DNA of 40,585 nt, from positions 1 to 40,585 of the IMG/VR virus record IMGVR_UViG_3300046512_000173; one strand, 5' to 3'. Below are positions 8,211 through 39,440 of the stretch, one piece after another. Position 1 is the stretch's first letter, and every line of letters begins with the position of its first letter. Under the pieces are notes generated by a model. It saw only the letters and a program-made list of their open reading frames with translations. It ran no database searches and was not told where the DNA came from. The translations under genes and the position numbers were made by a program. The DNA is from a virus.

Positions 8211-9036
8211 ATCGCGAGAACTCCAGGCTAAAGGCTTGTTTGCGAGGTACGCCGCCGGTGAGCAGAGCACTCTGTTCGTCGTCGACGCTCAACAAGCACC
8301 AGTTACCCAGCACCAGGCCATAACCTGTCGTGAGCAGCAAGGGCTTAAGCTGCTGGCCGAAGCTGCGCAGACGATCCAGCTGTTTCAGACCACCCCTGAA
8401 GCCCGGGAAGATCGCACCCTTGATGCTCAGCTTTTCAGCTCCGACGCCAACTGCCTGCTGAGCAGGCCGCCGCATCAGCCGCTCCTGCTCGGCCCAACGA
8501 AACGCCGATGAGCGACGTAACTCGTCGAAAGCAGCTGTGTCGAGGTTGAAGTAATACGGCTGAATGCCTGACTTCGAGTCGAGGAACTGCATGATCATGA
8601 GGTGCGCGTGACCACCCACGGCTTCGGGCGCTGGCGTTACCTTCGGAGCAATCGCGGCAGTGGGCAGCACCACCTCCATCTTGGTACCGGTTTTGGTGGC
8701 CAGTTTGTCGATAGCCGCCTCGGCCCGGGCGCCCTGCTCCTTGAGAACACCCACGCGATCCTGCACCTGGGCCAGGCCAGCGGCAGCATTGTTGTAGGTC
8801 GAAACGACCCGATTGATGCCCGACTGTGCGGCGCTGATCGCTCCGGTTACACGCCGTAGCTTCTGCCCTATGAGGTCGCCCACGAAGGGCAGCCCTTCCA
8901 GGTCATCGGCTGCCGACGAGATAGAGCTGATCGCCCCGTTGACCGGACTGATCATTCCCGCAAGGTCTTTGCGGCCGGTCTCACCAGCCTCGACCATGTA
9001 CTTCAGCCCACCTTGAAGCTTGTCTACATACTCCAT
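8185..9036 (-). CDS. U: P2 gpU-like tail terminator with long N-terminal extension
   Basis: Residues from about 140 to 283 (HAHLMIMQFLDSKSGIQPYYFN..., ending FSLEFSRYGDD) match gpU, the tail-tip or tail-completion protein, normally about 130-160 residues long. In front is an extra helical domain of about 135 residues (MEYVDKLQGGLKYMVEAGETG..., AAAGLAQVQDRVGVLKEQGARAEAAIDKL). The fusion is encoded in one uninterrupted frame. The start at 9036 has GGGGGGT before it and abuts the tape-measure stop. Confidence 0.82.
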   Translation of the reverse strand: MEYVDKLQGGLKYMVEAGETGRKDLAGMISPVNGAISSISSAADDLEGLPFVGDLIGQKLRRVTGAISAAQSGINRVVSTYNNAAAGLAQVQDRVGVLKEQGARAEAAIDKLATKTGTKMEVVLPTAAIAPKVTPAPEAVGGHAHLMIMQFLDSKSGIQPYYFNLDTAAFDELRRSSAFRWAEQERLMRRPAQQAVGVGAEKLSIKGAIFPGFRGGLKQLDRLRSFGQQLKPLLLTTGYGLVLGNWCLLSVDDEQSALLTGGVPRKQAFSLEFSRYGDDMQNV

Positions 9037-11784
9037 CTACCCCCCTTGCACATGGGCTTCGTCATACATGCTGCTGCGCCCGGCCTGCCGACCTATGTCC
9101 CGCAGCCTGCGTTCCAGCTCCGGCATCAGCCGATCAATGATGCCCTGTGGATCCTTCGCATCGCCCTGAACCACCAGGCTGATGGTCGGTGATATCTGGA
9201 CGTTCTGCTGCTGCACAGGCGCCGGGGCAGCAGGAGGGGCAGCCTGAGCCATCATCAGCAAAGGCGTCCCTGACGCGCTCGACTTGTCGAACGAGCGAGC
9301 AACATCACCCAATGCGGGCAACGACGGCGCAGCACCGGCCGGTTGATCTCCTGTCGCTGCCGTCTCAGCCTCAGGCTCATCGTCCCCAAACCACTTCTTG
9401 CCCGCCCACGCACCCAGGCTGTCACCGCCCATCCCCCCCAGAAAGGCGCCGATTGCACCGCCAACGACAGTGCCGATGACGGGCACAACCGAGCCAATCG
9501 CAGCCCCTGCCGCAGCACCCGCCATCGTTCCGGCCAAGCCACCTGCAGCTGAGCCGTAGCCTTCAGCCTTGTCGTTCTGGGTTTCAGCGTTCTGGTATGT
9601 GTCGAGTACTTTCGCGCCCGCCTCAAGGAACGACCCGCCGGGAATCGCTTTACCCAGCCCGCCGACCTTCGTGGCCACCGCCCCCAGCCGAGCCATTGCG
9701 CCAACCCGGGGAACAGCAGGGACAGGAGGAACATGGGGAACCGGCGGCGTCGGTGGAACTGGGCCGCGAGACGGTGGGCGAGCAGCACCATTGCGGCGCC
9801 TCCGAGATCGGCGGCGCCGAGCAGGGCCATCACTGGCCCCGCCATTTGAACCTGCACCAGGAACACCGCTGCCACCGATTTCCGAGGCGTTGACGACAAA
9901 GACCTTTTGAGGATCCTTGTCGCCGTCTTCCCCCTTGCCATCGCCCTTGCCTTCCGCAAAGGATTCGAACACCTTCAGGCCCGCATCAATCAACGCTTCA
10001 CCCGGTTTCGGCGCCTCGCCCTTTTCCCCATCCTTGTCATTAGCACCGATGGCCTTTCCTTTATAAGCACTCACGCCCGCGACGAGCAGGCCCTTTAGCG
10101 CTTCAGCCTTCCCGGACTTGCTGTCCTTATCATCCTCATCGGCTTTCTTGTCCTTGCCGTCATCAGCACCTTTGCCACGCCCGGCCAGAGCACCGCGCCC
10201 CAGATTCAGCAGCCCCTTGCCCACCTTGAATGTGCTGATGACAGACAGGACTGTGGCGACCGCAGCGCCCGCACCAACGAGCCCCATGGCAAGCGCCGGG
10301 GTTTTATCGCTGACATCGGTGATGCTCTGCGCCACCTTGGTCAGCGAGGTGGCCACCACGTCCGTCACCGGCCGCAACGCATCCCCGATGCTGCGCATCG
10401 CATCGTTCATTGCCTGCCCGGTCTCGGCCCACTTCTGTGCCGAGGTATCACGACGCTCTGCCAGGTTCTTGTCCAAGATACCGCTGGCATCGTTGGAGTC
10501 TTTTTTCAGCTGCTCGTACAGCTGCTTGTTCTGCATGTAACCCGTGAGTGCGGCCTTGACCTGCATGTCGGCAAACAAGTCGCCGGTGCGCAGGGCGCCC
10601 TCCAGGCTGGCCATCATTTCTTTAGCCTTCTTCGGATCGGTCTCCTTGCTGATGCTGGCCATGGCCTCCGACATCTGCTTGGCTTTCTTCGGATCGGTGG
10701 TTTCGACGTACTTTTGCGCCAGTGCAAACGACGTCTCCAACGTGGACTTGCCGTTCTTCAACCCCGTGTTCATTGACTTCTGATAGTCAATACCGGCGTC
10801 CTTATACGCCTTGACCACGTCGCCAGAACCGATCTTGCTGATCCAGTTTTTTAAGTTGTTCGCCGCCTCATCGGATGAGCCAGCGGTTTTCATTTGCACC
10901 TGCAGCATTGCGCCCAGTTGCGTCACTGCGTCGGTTCCCGTGATCCCCATGTTGCCCATCTGCGCGAGCAGGTCCGGGAACCATTTGGCCATGTCACTGG
11001 CCTCGAACGAACCGGCCTGCCCCTGGTAGGCAATCGCCTCCAACGCTTTCTGCATTTCCTTGGGATCGGTGATCTTGGCGTTCTGGCCCAGAGCGTTGAT
11101 CATTTTGGCCGTATCGACACCGTCAGCCCCCTGCCCAACGACAAACTTTGAAGCGACCGGCACATAGGCCAGCGCCTGCTTCAAGTCCATGCCAGCGCCT
11201 ACCAGGGCATTCACGACGCCCGCCACGTCATTACGGGCCATCCCGGTATCCCGCGACGTATCGATGATCGTGCGAGACATTTCAGCCTCTTCAGGCTTAT
11301 TCGCGATACCGGACTTGATCGCGATGTCCCGAATGATCGCACCGTACTCTGCGGACACCTTCGTTGAAGCGGCAGCCACACCCACGGTACCGGCCGCCAC
11401 CATGCCCGCCTGGACAAACCTGGTCTTGCCTTGCTCGAGCTGCTCCCTGCCTTTACTTTTCAGCTCAAGCGCCTGCGCCTGGCGTCCGGCCTCCACATAA
11501 GCCTTGCCCAGATTCCGCACCTCGACACCCTGCTTACGCAGCACCGCGAGGTTGTTCTCCAGTTTCGACAGCAGGCCGTCAGCCGCCGCCGATCCAGCCG
11601 TGTGCGCTTGCCGCCACTCCTGCTGCAAACGGCGGGTCTCGCCGATCATTGACTGCAGCGCCCGGGGTTTCGACTTGATGGCATCCAGGCGTTTGACCTT
11701 GCCCTCGACGTCCTTGAATGCGGCACCCAGCGAAGGGCTGACCGCGCCGCCCAAGACCAGGCCGATCTTCATTTCGTTCGACAT
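9037..11784 (-). CDS. T: Tail tape measure protein
   Basis: At 915 residues this is the longest gene of the tail module. It sits directly after the E/E' chaperone, as in all long-tailed phages. The N-terminus is helical (ALQSMIGETRRLQQEWRQA), the middle has the TP901-type tape measure pattern (GMDLKQALAYVPVASKF, GQAGSFEASDMAKWFPDL), and there are a membrane-like segment near residue 500 and a Gly/Ala-rich stretch near 770-830 (GSAAGGLAGTMAGAAAGAAIG). A Lys/Asp-rich linker and a Pro-rich stretch lie around 560-690. The protein sets tail length and helps DNA pass the inner membrane. Confidence 0.9.
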   Translation of the reverse strand: MSNEMKIGLVLGGAVSPSLGAAFKDVEGKVKRLDAIKSKPRALQSMIGETRRLQQEWRQAHTAGSAAADGLLSKLENNLAVLRKQGVEVRNLGKAYVEAGRQAQALELKSKGREQLEQGKTRFVQAGMVAAGTVGVAAASTKVSAEYGAIIRDIAIKSGIANKPEEAEMSRTIIDTSRDTGMARNDVAGVVNALVGAGMDLKQALAYVPVASKFVVGQGADGVDTAKMINALGQNAKITDPKEMQKALEAIAYQGQAGSFEASDMAKWFPDLLAQMGNMGITGTDAVTQLGAMLQVQMKTAGSSDEAANNLKNWISKIGSGDVVKAYKDAGIDYQKSMNTGLKNGKSTLETSFALAQKYVETTDPKKAKQMSEAMASISKETDPKKAKEMMASLEGALRTGDLFADMQVKAALTGYMQNKQLYEQLKKDSNDASGILDKNLAERRDTSAQKWAETGQAMNDAMRSIGDALRPVTDVVATSLTKVAQSITDVSDKTPALAMGLVGAGAAVATVLSVISTFKVGKGLLNLGRGALAGRGKGADDGKDKKADEDDKDSKSGKAEALKGLLVAGVSAYKGKAIGANDKDGEKGEAPKPGEALIDAGLKVFESFAEGKGDGKGEDGDKDPQKVFVVNASEIGGSGVPGAGSNGGASDGPARRRRSRRRRNGAARPPSRGPVPPTPPVPHVPPVPAVPRVGAMARLGAVATKVGGLGKAIPGGSFLEAGAKVLDTYQNAETQNDKAEGYGSAAGGLAGTMAGAAAGAAIGSVVPVIGTVVGGAIGAFLGGMGGDSLGAWAGKKWFGDDEPEAETAATGDQPAGAAPSLPALGDVARSFDKSSASGTPLLMMAQAAPPAAPAPVQQQNVQISPTISLVVQGDAKDPQGIIDRLMPELERRLRDIGRQAGRSSMYDEAHVQGG

Positions 11785-33290: not shown

Positions 33291-33495
33291 GGCGAGCGGC
33301 CCTTACCTCATCGAGGGACTGACAATCGATGCATTGAGTGCAGCCCGGTACGGCGAGGCGACGCTTCAGCGGGATAGGGTCATCGCAACCCACGCAAAAC
33401 AGAAAAGAATGGCCCACCGGTGCAGGCTTGCGCGAAGCGAGCGTGTGCGCCACGCCCTCCAGAACCAGATCATTTGCAAAGTCCACGTTATCCAC
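33283..33495 (-). CDS. C4 zinc-finger protein (TraR/DksA type)
   Basis: I chose GTG 33495, giving 70 residues: MDNVDFANDLVLEGVAHTLASRK..., FCVGCDDPI and CTQCIDCQSL. The CxxC-x(17)-CxxC set is that of phage TraR/DksA-like proteins, which bind RNA polymerase through the secondary channel and alter transcription without DNA binding. It overlaps the CII-like gene's stop and the primase start, showing tight coupling. The longer upstream frame is not protein-like. Confidence 0.75.
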   Translation of the reverse strand: MDNVDFANDLVLEGVAHTLASRKPAPVGHSFLFCVGCDDPIPLKRRLAVPGCTQCIDCQSLDEVRAARHA

Positions 33496-34232: not shown

Positions 34233-34469
34233 GTGCCCGTCAATCATTACCGTGACCTGACAGCACTGTGGTGGTGCGTCGGGAGAAACTGGGCGGCCCA
34301 CGGGTCGCCCTTTTTTCTAACTGTATTGCTCACTCGAAATGCCCTCTTCGGTGATTCCAAAATGCTCGAGTACCTCACTGAGCGTCACGACTCCTTCACT
34401 TTCGCGAGCGAGTGCCTTAATCAATGCAACGCTAGGGTCTTTACTAGCGTACTTGACATGAATACGTAG
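34233..34469 (+). CDS. Possible Icd/Ash-like small protein after the structured RNA
   Basis: The 78-residue frame from GTG 34233 begins MPVNHYRDLTALWWCVGRNWAAHGSPFF. This looks like a real peptide, and its WxxxGRxWAAHGxPFF pattern recalls Ash/Icd-like proteins encoded after C4 RNAs. The second half runs antisense to the 3' part of cro, and a terminator interrupts the gene at 34291-34316, so perhaps only a short part is expressed. The spacing to GGATTG is long, and expression is uncertain. Confidence 0.35.
   Translation: MPVNHYRDLTALWWCVGRNWAAHGSPFFLTVLLTRNALFGDSKMLEYLTERHDSFTFASECLNQCNARVFTSVLDMNT
34291..34316 (+). terminator. Intrinsic terminator of the plus-strand RNA
   Basis: GGGCGGCC (34291-34298) pairs with GGTCGCCC (34303-34310), including a G-T pair, followed by six T residues (34311-34316). 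It lies one base from the end of cro and ends rightward transcription from the structured RNA before it reaches cro and the operators. Confidence 0.65.
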
Positions 34470-34553
34470 GTAGCTGATGGCGATGCGGCATCGTTGGGCA
34501 TAGGCGTTCAGCCTTTCGGAACTCAAATCATTGATGTAGTCGCGTAGTTTCAT
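34317..34553 (-). CDS. cro: Cro-like repressor
   Basis: I chose ATG 34553 (GGAGGT seven bases upstream), giving 78 residues: MKLRDYINDLSSERLNAYAQRCRIAISYLRIHVKYAS. The small helical protein with DNA-binding composition is encoded divergently from the CI-like repressor, and the two share the operator region 34572-34633. The call rests on size, position and the helix-turn-helix-like LNAYAQRCRIAISYLRIHV. Confidence 0.7.
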   Translation of the reverse strand: MKLRDYINDLSSERLNAYAQRCRIAISYLRIHVKYASKDPSVALIKALARESEGVVTLSEVLEHFGITEEGISSEQYS

Positions 34554-34571
34554 GGCGCGTACCTCCAAAAT

Positions 34572-34596
34572 AAAAATAACCCATAAGGTTATTTTT
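34572..34596. promoter_or_regulatory. Repressor operator, cro side, perfect palindrome
   Basis: Ten-base arms (34572-34581 and 34587-34596) form a perfect inverted repeat around a 5-base centre, with core AATAACC-CATAA-GGTTATT. It lies 20-45 bases before the cro start codon. A TACAAT at 34597-34602, directly next to it, is a likely -10 box for rightward cI transcription. Confidence 0.7.
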
Positions 34597-34614: not shown

Positions 34615-34633
34615 ATTCACCTCAAAGGTTAAT
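34615..34633. promoter_or_regulatory. Second repressor operator between cro and cI
   Basis: ATTCACC, TCAAA, GGTTAAT has the same half-sites and spacing as the palindrome at 34572-34596, with one mismatch between its arms. It lies 18 bases before the cI start codon and overlaps a possible leftward -35 box (TTGAGG on the minus strand). Confidence 0.6.
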
Positions 34634-34650: not shown

Positions 34651-35298
34651 ATGAAAATTTCAGACACCCGGCTACAAAATTTCAGAAGGGTCTTGGCCGA
34701 GAAGAAGCTGAGGCTCACAGACGTCGCAGACCTGCTAGGCAAAGCACCAGCACAGGTCAGCGCTTTCGGGGGTAAAAATCCCACTAAAGGGATCGGAGAC
34801 CAGATAGCGCGCGAAATCGAGAAAGCCTTAAACCTTCATAGCGGCTATCTGGATATGCCTTTCGGAGTTGGCGAATTTAACAATGCGACCGTCTTGAGCC
34901 ATACAGGGCGTAAGCTGCCTGTGATTGGATCGATCGCTGCTGGCGCTTGGTGTGAGTCGCACGAAGGCTTCGATCCCCGAGACGCTGAAGAGTGGATTGA
35001 CGCTCCAGGCCCTGTGGGTCCGCGTGCATTTATCCTTAGGGTAGAAGGGATCAGCATGGAGCCCAAATTCATTGAAGGGGATAAGATTGTTATCGACCCT
35101 GCCCTTGATGCTCTGCCAGGCCACTTCGTTGCTGCAAAAAGATCCAGGGATCAAGCTGCCACATTAAAGCAACTCAAACAGGAAGGCGGGGAACTATATC
35201 TCTACGCCTTAAATCCTGATTGGCCAGATCGTATAATTAGAATGACAGAGGAATGGAGCATTTGCGGCCGAGCACGCTGGAAAATCTCTGATCTTTAG
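34651..35298 (+). CDS. cI: CI-like repressor, S24 self-cleaving
   Basis: The 215-residue product has an N-terminal helix-turn-helix (RLTDVADLLGKAPAQVSAFGG, residues 21-41) and a C-terminal S24 peptidase domain with Ser135 in VEGISMEP and Lys173 in ATLKQL. The expected cleavage site is Ala97-Gly98 in IAAGAW. It should be cleaved when RecA is activated by DNA damage, which induces the prophage. It is divergent from cro and followed after 28 bases by the Septu-like pair on the same strand. There is no strong ribosome-binding site before ATG 34651. Confidence 0.9.
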   Translation: MKISDTRLQNFRRVLAEKKLRLTDVADLLGKAPAQVSAFGGKNPTKGIGDQIAREIEKALNLHSGYLDMPFGVGEFNNATVLSHTGRKLPVIGSIAAGAWCESHEGFDPRDAEEWIDAPGPVGPRAFILRVEGISMEPKFIEGDKIVIDPALDALPGHFVAAKRSRDQAATLKQLKQEGGELYLYALNPDWPDRIIRMTEEWSICGRARWKISDL

Positions 35299-35326
35299 AA
35301 AAAAATGTACTTAAGGAAAAGTCATT

Positions 35327-36976
35327 ATGATATTTCAGGTTCTCCCCCCCCGCACTGAGCCTAACTATGCAGGTGAAAGCCAATTCGCACTAATACAAAA
35401 CCACTGGAACGATTATAGCTACGAAACCCAGTATAGCTTAGTATATTTAGGCCCAAGAGACCGCAGGGGCCACAATCTAATCGGAACAGTTAAGATTTTA
35501 AAAAAAGGGCAAAAGGCTGTAGACCCTCTCCAACTCAATGACGACTTCAACTTCTTAGACGACGAATTTGTCTCAGTAGGTCAGTCTTTAGACTACTACC
35601 AACGGATATCTTCACTCCAGACCGACGTACGCACTAAGCTATTAGAATCACTTAATGACTACGTTTCCAACCCAACATTAGGTGACGAGTTCCGAAGCGA
35701 GGAAGGCTGGAGTATATCGCTATTCCGTTACTTCGATGAAAACGACAACTTCCTGCTTACTGCGAAATCGCTCTTAAATAGAAATTTTGACTCACTTCAA
35801 CACACTGATTTAAATTTCTCATTTGAAGTTCATGGCTGGGAAAAGAAAATACAATTCGATTATTCTCTTCCTGAAACCGTGAGTCGCTTAGGGGGAATTG
35901 CGCACCCGATTCCTGGGCGAATCATTGCTATAATTGGGCGCAATGGCTCGGGTAAAAGCACACTATTGGCACGACTTGCCCGCGTCGCATACGGCACCAG
36001 TAAAAGCAGGCAAGACGGGATGTTCGACCAAGTCGGAAGAATGGACCCTGAAGGCATCGGCTTCCCTAGAATCATAACAGTGTCCTATAGCGCTTTTGAC
36101 AGTTTCCGGCTTCCAGGACTCAAACCAAATGTTGAGGGAGAGGCGGACGAGAGATTACAAATCATTAAGGATGTGAACGAAGGTGGTGGTAGATTTGTAT
36201 TCTGTGGCCTAAGGGATATTGCGGCAGAGCTTCAAGAACAACTCGACTACGAAGAACTACTAGGTGAGGCGGTAAAGCCCACAGACAAGGTGGCTTCAAC
36301 TCTTCTAAAACCTGTAGAATCCCTTGCAAAGGAGTTCCATAACACCTTGCTGTTAGTTAAGCAGAATGAGGCCTCGCATATATTAGACAGAGCTCTAAGA
36401 TGCATAGCTAGCGATGCTTCGTTCTCATCCTATCAACACACACTGACGACAAAGTATCTACTGGAAAACGATCCTAAGACACTATTCCTGATGTGGAGTA
36501 CAGGGCACAAAATTGTGATGCAAATAATCACAAGCCTTGCTGCACACACAACACAATCTTCTCTAATATTGATAGACGAACCAGAAACCCACCTACATCC
36601 ACCGCTTCTTGCGGCGCTAATGCATGCCATACGTATAATACTATCGACGAAGAAAGCATTTGCAGTAGTAGCTACACACTCGCCGGTGGTGCTACAAGAA
36701 ACACTTGTTAAACATACATATCTGATTCGTAGGGAAGGCAAAGTCACCTCAATTCAAAAACCGAATCGAGAAACCTTTGGAGAAAACATTGGAACATTGA
36801 CTGGAGAGACGTTCGGCTTAAATACGCGACCAACCGATTTCCACACGACCCTGGACCGTCTTATAAAAGAACATAAGAACCTTGACAGGATCGAAAGTTT
36901 TTTTGAACCTTATGGGCTAAGCATGCAAGCCAGGGCGTACGTGATGAGCCAACTGGCGGCGATGGAGCTTATCTAA
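35327..36976 (+). CDS. ptuA: Septu-like PtuA ATPase
   Basis: The 549-residue protein has an N-terminal domain of about 190 residues, then an ABC/SMC-type ATPase: Walker A GRNGSGKST at 204-212, a signature-like MWSTGHK near 389-395, Walker B LILIDEPETHLHP at 413-425 and an H-loop THS at 450-452. Paired with an HNH nuclease, this is the Septu composition (PtuA senses or regulates, PtuB cuts). The start has AAGGA nine bases upstream and lies 28 bases after cI, so both are probably co-transcribed from the repressor promoter. The gene is AT-richer than the phage late genes. A long N-terminal domain before Walker A may mark a variant. Confidence 0.8.
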   Translation: MIFQVLPPRTEPNYAGESQFALIQNHWNDYSYETQYSLVYLGPRDRRGHNLIGTVKILKKGQKAVDPLQLNDDFNFLDDEFVSVGQSLDYYQRISSLQTDVRTKLLESLNDYVSNPTLGDEFRSEEGWSISLFRYFDENDNFLLTAKSLLNRNFDSLQHTDLNFSFEVHGWEKKIQFDYSLPETVSRLGGIAHPIPGRIIAIIGRNGSGKSTLLARLARVAYGTSKSRQDGMFDQVGRMDPEGIGFPRIITVSYSAFDSFRLPGLKPNVEGEADERLQIIKDVNEGGGRFVFCGLRDIAAELQEQLDYEELLGEAVKPTDKVASTLLKPVESLAKEFHNTLLLVKQNEASHILDRALRCIASDASFSSYQHTLTTKYLLENDPKTLFLMWSTGHKIVMQIITSLAAHTTQSSLILIDEPETHLHPPLLAALMHAIRIILSTKKAFAVVATHSPVVLQETLVKHTYLIRREGKVTSIQKPNRETFGENIGTLTGETFGLNTRPTDFHTTLDRLIKEHKNLDRIESFFEPYGLSMQARAYVMSQLAAMELI

Positions 36977-37830
36977 TGTGGAGATTAGAAGTTCCTCACA
37001 TCAACACTTCGAAAGCGGATATTGAGTCCGCACTCACACTGTTAGATGGCACTCCAGTTTATCCAGTGACCGAGATCGAGAAGACACGAATTTTAGAGCT
37101 ATATTCCTTATACGACAGTCATCAAGGAAACCCAAACGAAACACTAAAAGGTACGCCTGCGGAAAGCCCACTGCTTGATGCAATTTACAATGCGTACTCT
37201 CAAATCCAAAAGGGGGGGCGGCTCGAGGATTACCGAGACAGATTAAAGCTAAATGCGGAACTCTGTCCTTACTGTGGATTTGGCCCTATCACGGACCTTG
37301 ACCATCATCTCCCTCGATCCAAATATAAAGCTCATGCAATTTACGCTAGAAACCTGATTCCCTGCTGTCATCCATGTAACAACCTGAAGAGGACAAAAGC
37401 TGGAGAGAATCCTGACGGTCAATTTTCGCATGTATATTTCGGAGAATATCCAGACGCCGGATTTCTTACAGCAGAGACAACCGTACTACCAACGGGGCTA
37501 GTCGTAAAATTTTCGGTTAACCATATCGCAACTCTCGATTCCAATGAATTCGAAAGACTACATTTCCAGTTCACAACATTAAACCTCGATATGCGTTACA
37601 AAGTGCCAGTCAATACTTTTCTAGGAACGTTAAGAACGAGCATCGAGAGCTTCGCAGCGCTTGGTAGCCCAGCACTAAAAGCGTTTCTAGATCGGTGCCA
37701 CCTTGCCTCATGCAGGGATTTTGGTCCCAATCACTGGCAGTCGGCTCTTTTAAAGGGGCTGGCAGACTCCAACGACTTTTGCTCAGGGGGATTTGTCCAT
37801 TGCTTTGGTCGTAAGGACCCCGCCGTATAA
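36976..37830 (+). CDS. ptuB: Septu-like PtuB HNH nuclease
   Basis: The 284-residue protein carries an HNH core with structural zinc ligands: CPYC at 97-100, DHHLPRS at 109-115, then NLIPCCHPCNNLK at 126-138. The start codon overlaps the ptuA stop (TAATG), so the two are translationally coupled. In Septu systems the nuclease degrades nucleic acid of an infecting phage once the complex is activated. The frame is intact. The stop is directly followed by the second repressor operator cluster. Confidence 0.82.
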   Translation: MWRLEVPHINTSKADIESALTLLDGTPVYPVTEIEKTRILELYSLYDSHQGNPNETLKGTPAESPLLDAIYNAYSQIQKGGRLEDYRDRLKLNAELCPYCGFGPITDLDHHLPRSKYKAHAIYARNLIPCCHPCNNLKRTKAGENPDGQFSHVYFGEYPDAGFLTAETTVLPTGLVVKFSVNHIATLDSNEFERLHFQFTTLNLDMRYKVPVNTFLGTLRTSIESFAALGSPALKAFLDRCHLASCRDFGPNHWQSALLKGLADSNDFCSGGFVHCFGRKDPAV

Positions 37831-37848
37831 AACACCATAAAGGTTATT
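37830..37848. promoter_or_regulatory. Repressor operator, right cluster, first site
   Basis: AAACACC, ATAAA, GGTTATT shares the right half-site and spacing with the cro-side palindrome; the left arm is degenerate (5 of 7). It begins at the end of ptuB and lies before the rightward early promoter. Confidence 0.5.
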
Positions 37849-37854
37849 TTTTAT

Positions 37855-37883
37855 TTGACTTGATAACCCTTAAGGTTAATTAT
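37855..37883 (+). promoter_or_regulatory. Rightward early promoter (PL-like) with repressor operator
   Basis: TTGACT at 37855-37860 is a good -35 box. An AATTAT or TAATTA -10 candidate follows at 37877-37883 with 16-17 bases spacing. Between and over them lies GATAACC, CTTAA, GGTTAAT (37862-37880), the same operator as at 34572-34633. Repressor bound here would block the promoter of the early operon that starts at 37919. This matches OL/PL of lambda. Confidence 0.6.
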
Positions 37884-37918: not shown

Positions 37919-38095
37919 ATGCACACCACTGCAACCCTGCACGTCCATCCGGCCGTCGCAAACCCCATCCGCGTCTTTGAAATTCGCCACCTGGCTCGCG
38001 AGGCAGGCTGCGCATTCATTGCCAGCAAGCCGAAAAGCAAAGCCCGCAATGCCCCTACCCCCTTCGACCCAAACGACGGCGGGCGTGCAGCATGA
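37919..38095 (+). CDS. Small first gene of the early operon, unknown
   Basis: A 58-residue product (MHTTATLHVHPAVANPIRVFEIRHLAREAGCAFIASK...) with a GAGG seven bases before the ATG. It is basic and Pro/Ala-rich in its C-terminus. Its stop overlaps the next start (ATGA). I recall similar small proteins at this place in pseudomonad prophages but no function. Confidence 0.6.
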   Translation: MHTTATLHVHPAVANPIRVFEIRHLAREAGCAFIASKPKSKARNAPTPFDPNDGGRAA

Positions 38096-38682
38096 GCAAG
38101 TTCAAATTCGATAACCGCGCTCTTACTCTGCTCAGCGCTCAGGTCAACCTGAGCGAGACCTTCACTCACACCTTGCGGTCAACACCACAACGGAAGGCCC
38201 TTTCCTTCCGTTTGAAGATCGAGCGCAACGATGAAGACACCACCTTCATCGTTGAAATGGGCAATCAGCGGCACACGCTGACCCTGGCAAACGGTAAGAA
38301 GAGCCACCTAAAGCTGGCCGACTTCATCGAAGAGATCGCCAACGGGCCTGGCGACCACCATTGCAACGGAGCTATCACAGCGACTCCCCATGCTGAACGT
38401 CAGTATGGCGTTCTGAGCACAGAGCAGCGCGAACAGGTGTTCAACCTGGTTTGTAAAGGGGGAACGTTGATCCTCGATCTTGGCTTCGAGTTACCCATTC
38501 ACGTCGCGCATCACCGTACGTACACGCGCAAGGGGTCCACGACGATCATGAGCATTGGCATCAAGAACCCAAGGACCAAGTGCTTCACTCTGACCGGAGA
38601 TGAAACCGACATCTACAAACGGCTGATCGAATCCATCAACCACCTGGCAGCGATTGCAACGCCAACAGCGCATGCGGCGTAG
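38092..38682 (+). CDS. Unknown early protein
   Basis: The 196-residue product (MSKFKFDNRALTLLSAQVNLSETFTHTLRS...) is beta-rich in the middle (FRLKIERNDEDTTFIVEMGNQRHTLTLANGKK) and contains HPHAER-like and HVAHHRTYTRKG stretches. No domain is recognised. It is coupled to its neighbours by short overlaps or gaps in the early operon. Confidence 0.6.
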   Translation: MSKFKFDNRALTLLSAQVNLSETFTHTLRSTPQRKALSFRLKIERNDEDTTFIVEMGNQRHTLTLANGKKSHLKLADFIEEIANGPGDHHCNGAITATPHAERQYGVLSTEQREQVFNLVCKGGTLILDLGFELPIHVAHHRTYTRKGSTTIMSIGIKNPRTKCFTLTGDETDIYKRLIESINHLAAIATPTAHAA

Positions 38683-38976: not shown

Positions 38977-39127
38977 GGAATACGCTCGCCAGATAGTCGC
39001 CTTAAAGACCAAAGAGGAGCGCAATGCAGCGCTCCTTGAGGTTCCAGAGCACCTGCGCGAGCTGACCAAAACCCATTGCCTGATCGCCTGGACCCACCCC
39101 AAAAGGAAAAAAACCGATGACAAGTAG
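38963..39127 (+). CDS. Small early protein with WPREYARQI motif
   Basis: From GTG 38963 a 54-residue product (MAWPREYARQIVALKTKEERNAALLEVPEHLRELTKTHCLIAW...) overlaps the end of the preceding gene. It is a helical protein of a kind I recall from many pseudomonad prophages, with no known function. The ribosome-binding site is weak, so translational coupling is likely. Confidence 0.6.
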   Translation: MAWPREYARQIVALKTKEERNAALLEVPEHLRELTKTHCLIAWTHPKRKKTDDK

Positions 39128-39440
39128 CCAGCCACCGCTACGACTGATGCCACCACCAGAGGCGGCAACCGTCGAGCTGCTCTATCGCACTTTTGGCGAT
39201 GTGCTGATCCCCCTGGACAAGCTGCGCGTGCAGTACTTCCGCAACCTCAATGAGCGCTCGTTTGTAACAGAGATAGAGAGCGGCCGCATCCAGCTTCCGA
39301 TCACAACACTGGACAGCAGCCGCAAGGCTCCGAAGTTTGCCCACATCCGACACGTAGCGGCACTGATCGATATTCGGGCCTACAAGGCGGACGAAGAAAT
39401 GGACGCGCAACAGAAAGGCTTAACCGACCAACCCACGTAA
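39117..39440 (+). CDS. Pyocin activator PrtN-family protein
   Basis: The 107-residue product contains ELLYRTFGDVLIPLDKLRVQYFRNLNERSF and IQLPITTLDSSRKAPKFAHIRHVAALID, the PrtN layout. PrtN activates pyocin genes after RecA-dependent loss of a repressor. In prophages, relatives probably help switch on lytic genes. AAAGGA precedes the ATG. Confidence 0.75.
   Translation: MTSSQPPLRLMPPPEAATVELLYRTFGDVLIPLDKLRVQYFRNLNERSFVTEIESGRIQLPITTLDSSRKAPKFAHIRHVAALIDIRAYKADEEMDAQQKGLTDQPT

Follow-up and report, generated by a model that had tools for sequence, protein, structure and literature searches.

Organization of the repressor region

The window, by which we mean the whole 40,585-nt stretch of DNA that was analysed, is the leftward-transcribed genome of a temperate, contractile-tailed phage, with genes for portal, terminase, major head protein, tail sheath and tape measure. 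Its host is Pseudomonas, in which the phage lies dormant as a prophage. The switch region of the phage spans 34.3-37.9 kb and includes a cI-type repressor gene with an S24/LexA peptidase domain (34651..35298, + strand; PF00717 2.3e-21; PHROG_4 repressor 3.3e-31). Divergent from cI are a cro-like gene (34317..34568, - strand), which is assigned by position, matches the phrog_35 repressor family weakly (0.0062) and is kept in nearly all related loci, and a CII-like gene (end at 33488, - strand).

Behind cI, on the same strand, lie the two genes of interest, encoding an Ea59/PtuA-like ATPase of 549 aa (35327..36976) and an Ea31-like HNH nuclease of 284 aa (36976..37830). The cI stop codon and the ATG of the ATPase are 28 nt apart, a Shine-Dalgarno-like AAGGA stands right before the ATPase gene, and the ATPase stop and the HNH start share TAATG. 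Neither a terminator-like site nor a consensus promoter was found in the gap between cI and the ATPase gene. The first-pass annotation of this region had described the two reading frames, their strand, the TAATG coupling and the 28-base gap, all of which proved exact, and its statement that the pair ends at a second cluster of repressor operators was likewise borne out.

Operator-like palindromes of the AATAACC-N5-GGTTATT type occur four times in the whole window, against a chance expectation of 0.07, and they are confined to two places: the cro/cI intergenic region (34575 and 34615) and the sequence directly after the HNH gene (37830 and 37862). The first two are OR-a (34575..34593; AATAACCCATAAGGTTATT), a palindrome with a PWM score of 25.1, and OR-b (34615..34633; ATTCACCTCAAAGGTTAAT; PWM 19.9). 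The other two are OL-a (37830..37848; AAACACCATAAAGGTTATT; PWM 13.3), whose first base is the last base of the HNH stop codon, and OL-b (37862..37880; GATAACCCTTAAGGTTAAT; PWM 25.1). A PL-like promoter, TTGACT-17-AATTAT, overlaps OL-b (37855..37883, + strand) and matches the consensus at 9 of 12 positions, which is weak taken alone. The first gene on the PL side (38092..38682, + strand; PHROG 5.8e-75) belongs to phrog_15582, a family of unknown function, and served as the right-hand anchor in the comparisons below. Further downstream of PL there is a PrtN-like (pyocin activator) gene (39117-39440, + strand), listed as an excisionase in PHROGs and present in nearly all related prophages.

Family assignment of the ATPase and the HNH protein

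Searches against PADLOC placed both proteins in PDC-M01, an unpublished candidate family of that database for whose members the papers found describe no experiment. The ATPase matched the PDC-M01A model PDLC04235 at 2.9e-107 (residues 1-544) and the PtuA1 model PDLC00282 at 2e-81 (aligned 1-539), both at full length, and the HNH protein matched the PDC-M01B model PDLC04264 at 1.7e-45, its top 25 matches all being PDC-M01B. The main named phage relatives of the pair are Ea59 and Ea31 of lambda, together with copies in other lambdoid records; Ea59 is 28.5-32% identical to the ATPase and Ea31 25-25.4% identical to the HNH protein, and they score 3.9e-201 and 5.8e-113 on the same PDC-M01 models. 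The two genes lie side by side in lambda and other phages as well as in Pseudomonas chromosomes, where the relatives are 41-42% identical to the ATPase and 30-32% identical to the product of the adjoining HNH gene.

The catalytic residues appear intact. The ATPase has a Walker A motif, GRNGSGKS, around K210 and a Walker B motif, LILIDEPE (D417-E418), and the HNH and zinc residues C97, C100, D109, H110, N126, C131 and C134 are all present in its partner; these Walker A/B and HNH/zinc positions are invariant or near-invariant across 12 relatives. Defence by Septu EcB88 requires both enzymatic activities, with K43/D316 and H75/N91 as the residues concerned (PMC13096335), and these have counterparts in K210/D417 of the ATPase and H110/N126 of the HNH protein. 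Both genes are under strong purifying selection among the five slot members described below (pN 0.14-0.29; pS ~0.79 or higher); no dN/dS ratio is given because synonymous sites are saturated.

The first-pass annotation had called the pair a Septu-like PtuAB and had proposed an HMM search against Septu models as a check, which gave a divided answer: the ATPase fits one full-length PtuA model, PDLC00282, but the HNH protein reaches 14.3 bits on TIGR02646 (PtuB), far under the cut-off of 52. Against the NCBIfam PtuA model of the retron Ec78 type the ATPase scores 32 of 500 bits, far under the cut-off as well. When its profile was compared with the PDB, the leading family match, setting aside one to a RecA P-loop, was PtuA of retron Ec78 (2.6e-9), and the profile of the HNH protein met PtuB at just 0.024. 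A Foldseek search with the AlphaFold model of the ATPase returned only PtuA among the best 43 PDB matches (E from 2.3e-8), the model being of moderate confidence (pLDDT 67.2; TM ~0.3) and serving for the ranking of relatives only. A low-confidence model of the HNH protein (pLDDT 68.8) gave no meaningful match in a fold search of the PDB.

It may be argued that the pair is Septu in the strict sense and that the PDC-M01 label is a mere database artefact. The full-length PtuA1 match and the exclusively PtuA fold ranking speak for this, as does the fact that 41 PADLOC calls of PDC-M01 duplicated Septu calls and lost the PDC label (PMC11811056). However, PDLC00282 is itself an Ea59-type model, because Ea59 of lambda scores 5.4e-184 on it. 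The HNH protein, with 25 of 25 top matches in PDC-M01B, misfits the PtuB and TIGR02646 models, and the Walker A lysine is K210 here as opposed to K43 in Septu EcB88 (PMC13096335). Moreover, a textbook Septu occupies the corresponding interval of a relative with another repressor (L121:3585-5709; PtuA 1e-131, PtuB 5.7e-84), as does a second one by similarity to it (L130:3569-5710), and the textbook proteins are clearly different from the pair. We therefore regard a strict Septu identity as unlikely. By its sequence, the pair is best placed in PDC-M01, the Ea59/Ea31 lineage. It is sister to Septu, not a textbook Septu system, and is predicted to work like PtuAB. The N-terminal domain of 190 residues before Walker A, put forward earlier as a possible new variant, is real; it is not new, because lambda Ea59 and the full-length PADLOC models have the same domain.

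Two other identities were considered. A retron effector was excluded, as the two reading frames take up the slot (35299-37829), which contains no reverse transcriptase. No Rex family was among the matches listed for either protein.

An exchangeable slot between cI and OL

The same cI was found in 80 viral contigs and 27 bacterial loci, the latter nearly all Pseudomonas. The comparison set consists of 86 loci including the window, in which the right-hand anchor gene is present and cI is at least 75% identical. In all 86, OL operators stand before the anchor gene and bound the interval, and the OR operators keep their distances of -723 and -683 from the cI stop codon to within 1 nt. The cI stop marks exactly the point where nucleotide conservation goes from 0.75 down to 0.35, and with OL it recovers. 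Among 77 distinct cI-OL intervals, 74 are filled and three are empty, the latter represented by four loci (L057 with L077, L059 and L184) in which OL follows cI after 2-3 nt. The filled intervals contain 31 unrelated module types, 14 of them seen once, with a Chao1 estimate of 44, and whole modules are swapped at two fixed edges, one at the cI stop codon and the other at the OL operators. The interval is thus an exchangeable cargo slot, and a dispensable one, being empty in relatives. The proposal that the pair sits in the rexAB position receives strong support from these roughly 80 related prophages, which share the same operator-bounded interval.

The ATPase-HNH pair fills five distinct slots, namely those of the window, L002, L003, L004 and L188; it is found in two named strains, namely Pseudomonas sp. 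CC6-YY-74, where the proteins do not differ from those of L003, and P. lundensis L1802 (L188). Prophages with a different repressor (31-36% identity) have the same slot, which is empty in 12 and filled in 11 of 23 loci. In all 11 filled ones (L008, L092, L115, L117, L121, L122, L129, L130, L151, L152 and L163) the cargo faces cI, as against about half of the slots with the window's type of cI. In an unrelated prophage, an Ea59/Ea31-like pair (L197:5989-8363) lies directly downstream of, and convergent with, a putative repressor gene (8872-9522), a comparable position but with the opposite orientation. A search of open-access papers found no earlier description of the Pseudomonas cI-OL slot, which is weak evidence of absence.

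Defence-like cargo of the slot

At the level of sequence similarity, most slot modules resemble defence systems. PADLOC matches at 1e-5 or better were obtained for 17 of 30 scanned module types, with the reservation that matches of ATPase-type cargo can be generic. The cargo so matched comprises PD-T7-3, AbiTii, a retron type VI reverse transcriptase, DRT UG17 with SLATT, AriA/AriB-like pairs, SIR2, a type II methyltransferase with its partner, NsnA/PD-T4-2, AbiC/AbiP, a CBASS-type nuclease effector, OLD-like proteins and candidate families. Two further module types carry CAP12-type TIR or NACHT domains. As a control, ten other genes of the window, a set drawn from a single genome, were compared with the anti-phage models, and one matched. 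This was an accessory gene at the other (left) end of the prophage (408-1871, - strand), whose 487-aa product has a TIR domain at its N terminus (CBASS TIR effector 2.4e-49; PycTIR 5.9e-38), which is probably a second anti-phage gene at another accessory position. On the other hand, 11 of the 30 scanned types showed no defence match, so the slot may take other genes as well.

The commonest cargo is a protein of 312-367 aa, here called the 341-aa family, which occurs at L012:6677-7702 and in nine more slots, always in the direction of cI. The one member scanned had no PADLOC or Pfam match, and the family is a strong candidate for a defence protein not described before. Other recurrent modules lie at L010:6649-8103 (a 484-aa family), L018:6689-8308 (a 539-aa family) and L069:6678-9192; two of these have no Pfam or PADLOC match, and the L069 type is a pair, with a nucleoid-associated NA37 domain in its second protein. 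The slots of L063, L064, L081 and L178 carry a type VI retron-like reverse transcriptase directed against cI, plus hundreds of extra bases towards OL, in which an msr/msd RNA could sit.

Orientation of modules and predicted expression

Of 70 distinct filled slots with a single orientation, 36 carry modules directed along cI ('+') and 34 against it ('-'), and each recurring module keeps one orientation among its members, except for one extra ORF. The median distance from the cI stop to the start of a '+' module is 31 nt; most of these modules have a Shine-Dalgarno-like sequence, and their ends lie some 42 nt short of the OL anchor. In '-' modules, by contrast, about 120-121 nt separate the start from the OL anchor (p = 2e-7), which would leave room for a promoter of their own. 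Terminator-like sites after cI were found in none of 36 '+' slots and in one of 35 '-' slots and do not distinguish the classes. Simple sigma-70 promoter scoring did not separate '+' or '-' modules from shuffles, and the promoter argument is for this reason one of spacing.

For the '+' ATPase-HNH pair, the natural reading of this arrangement is that it would be read through from PRM together with cI. An alternative is that the pair is a defence module with its own or an internal promoter, independent of cI, and that its position reflects mere tolerance of insertions. Such promoters must exist in the slot, since the modules in 34 of the 70 slots face cI and must use another promoter, as must those in all 11 filled slots of the prophages with another repressor type. 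Coupling to cI is accordingly not general to the slot, because about half of the modules face cI and are unreadable from PRM. The pair itself, however, is '+', starts 28 nt behind cI after AAGGA, and follows a gap free of terminator-like sites and consensus promoters; '+' modules as a class leave no 5' promoter space, whereas '-' modules keep theirs before the OL anchor. Expression of the pair independent of cI is thus rather improbable, although a promoter within cI may exist, and we favour read-through from the repressor transcript.

Proposed function and significance

Taken together, we consider it likely that the pair is an anti-phage module expressed in the lysogen for superinfection exclusion, of the Ea59/Ea31 lineage and sister to Septu, carried in the exchangeable cI-OL slot of a contractile-tailed temperate phage of Pseudomonas. 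The exclusion role, already suggested by the first-pass annotation, appears very likely because about 80 related prophages mark the interval as a defence-gene slot; what changes is the identity of the module, which is Ea59/Ea31 rather than strict Septu. That the pair instead serves the phage's own life cycle (DNA processing, HNH homing or recombination) is improbable, since the slot is dispensable and filled by unrelated, mostly defence-like modules, the pairing of ATPase and HNH genes is also kept outside phages, and there is no self-insertion signature, the edges being cI and OL for every module, even though HNH proteins of phages frequently serve in homing or packaging, PHROGs places this one in DNA metabolism (phrog_10378), and no function, defensive or other, is on record for lambda Ea59/Ea31 in the open-access literature searched.

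The exclusion module may be pictured as follows. Translation of the ATPase and the HNH protein would proceed from the cI (PRM) transcript of the lysogen. By analogy with PtuAB, the ATPase would act as sensor or gate, sensing an invading phage and then licensing the HNH nuclease as effector. The nuclease would cut an essential nucleic acid, as characterised PtuAB do, and so stop the infection; Septu EcB88 and retron-Eco7 deplete tRNA-Tyr (PMC13096335; PMC11555353), and another Septu is reported to attack phage DNA (PMC11555353). No tRNA gene able to guard against tRNA cleavage was found in the 40,585 nt. Upon induction, in line with the shut-off that the first-pass annotation proposed, loss of cI would end new synthesis of the pair, which would lower the risk of self-attack.

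A broader reading is more tentative, and we place it a little short of an even chance. The cI-OL interval might be a dedicated plug-in slot for defence with two wirings, '+' modules riding on the cI transcript and '-' modules using their own promoter beside OL, perhaps under repressor control; the roughly 11 domain-less modules (e.g., the 341-aa family with its 10 slots) might be new anti-phage systems, and Ea59/Ea31 of lambda might themselves act in superinfection exclusion.

Defence cargo beside a repressor (rexAB, BstA, RexABpp) and Septu in phage hotspots are already known. To these we add the occurrence of an Ea59/Ea31-type pair at the rexAB position, and a precisely bounded Pseudomonas slot with at least 31 modules in two orientation classes. 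The assignment ties lambda Ea59/Ea31 to a PtuAB-like defence family and gives a testable defence hypothesis for both. The slot, in turn, is a sharply bounded site for the swapping of defence genes in Pseudomonas prophages, and reading the content between cI and OL therefore amounts to a discovery screen, which has so far yielded 31 modules in 77 distinct slots, about one third of these modules without any known domain.

Comparison with known systems

The closest counterpart is lambda Ea59/Ea31, which agrees with the pair in gene order, overlapping reading frames, the N-terminal domain before Walker A, catalytic residues and HMM family. It differs in position: instead of the cI slot, the lambda pair occupies the b region past att/int. 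An ABC/OLD-type ATPase is likewise combined with an HNH nuclease in Septu PtuAB and in the PtuAB effectors of retron Ec78/Eco7, and PtuA of these systems is the nearest solved relative of the ATPase in profile as well as fold comparisons. Compared with Septu EcB88, however, the ATPase has about 165 more residues before Walker A (K210 versus K43), and the HNH protein, unlike PtuB, fails the PtuB/TIGR02646 models. Retrons carry a reverse transcriptase and msr/msd beside PtuAB, whereas the slot of the pair has no reverse transcriptase.

In position, the pair resembles lambda rexAB and BstA of BTP1, which lie downstream of cI (PMC8585504), and RexABpp, which lies within the repressor operon of the P. 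putida prophage P1 (PMC12894663); all are found right behind the repressor on the same strand, and, like them, the pair is probably co-transcribed with the repressor in the lysogen. The proteins are unrelated, and the effector is the membrane protein RexB in one case and an HNH nuclease in the other. Defence genes near a repressor are also known from tha/ith of 80alpha and the immunity regions of Gifsy phages (PMC11087260, PMC12724215), and the tha-1 transcript starts from the cI promoter and drops on induction (PMC11087260). These systems employ other proteins, and no ith-type antisense antidote gene was identified at the locus of the pair. Finally, the antiviral hotspots of P2 and P4 offer many alternative defence modules, Septu included, at one phage locus (PMC9122126), as the slot described here does; they occupy another locus, whereas the Pseudomonas slot is bordered by the cI stop codon on one side and by the OL operators on the other.
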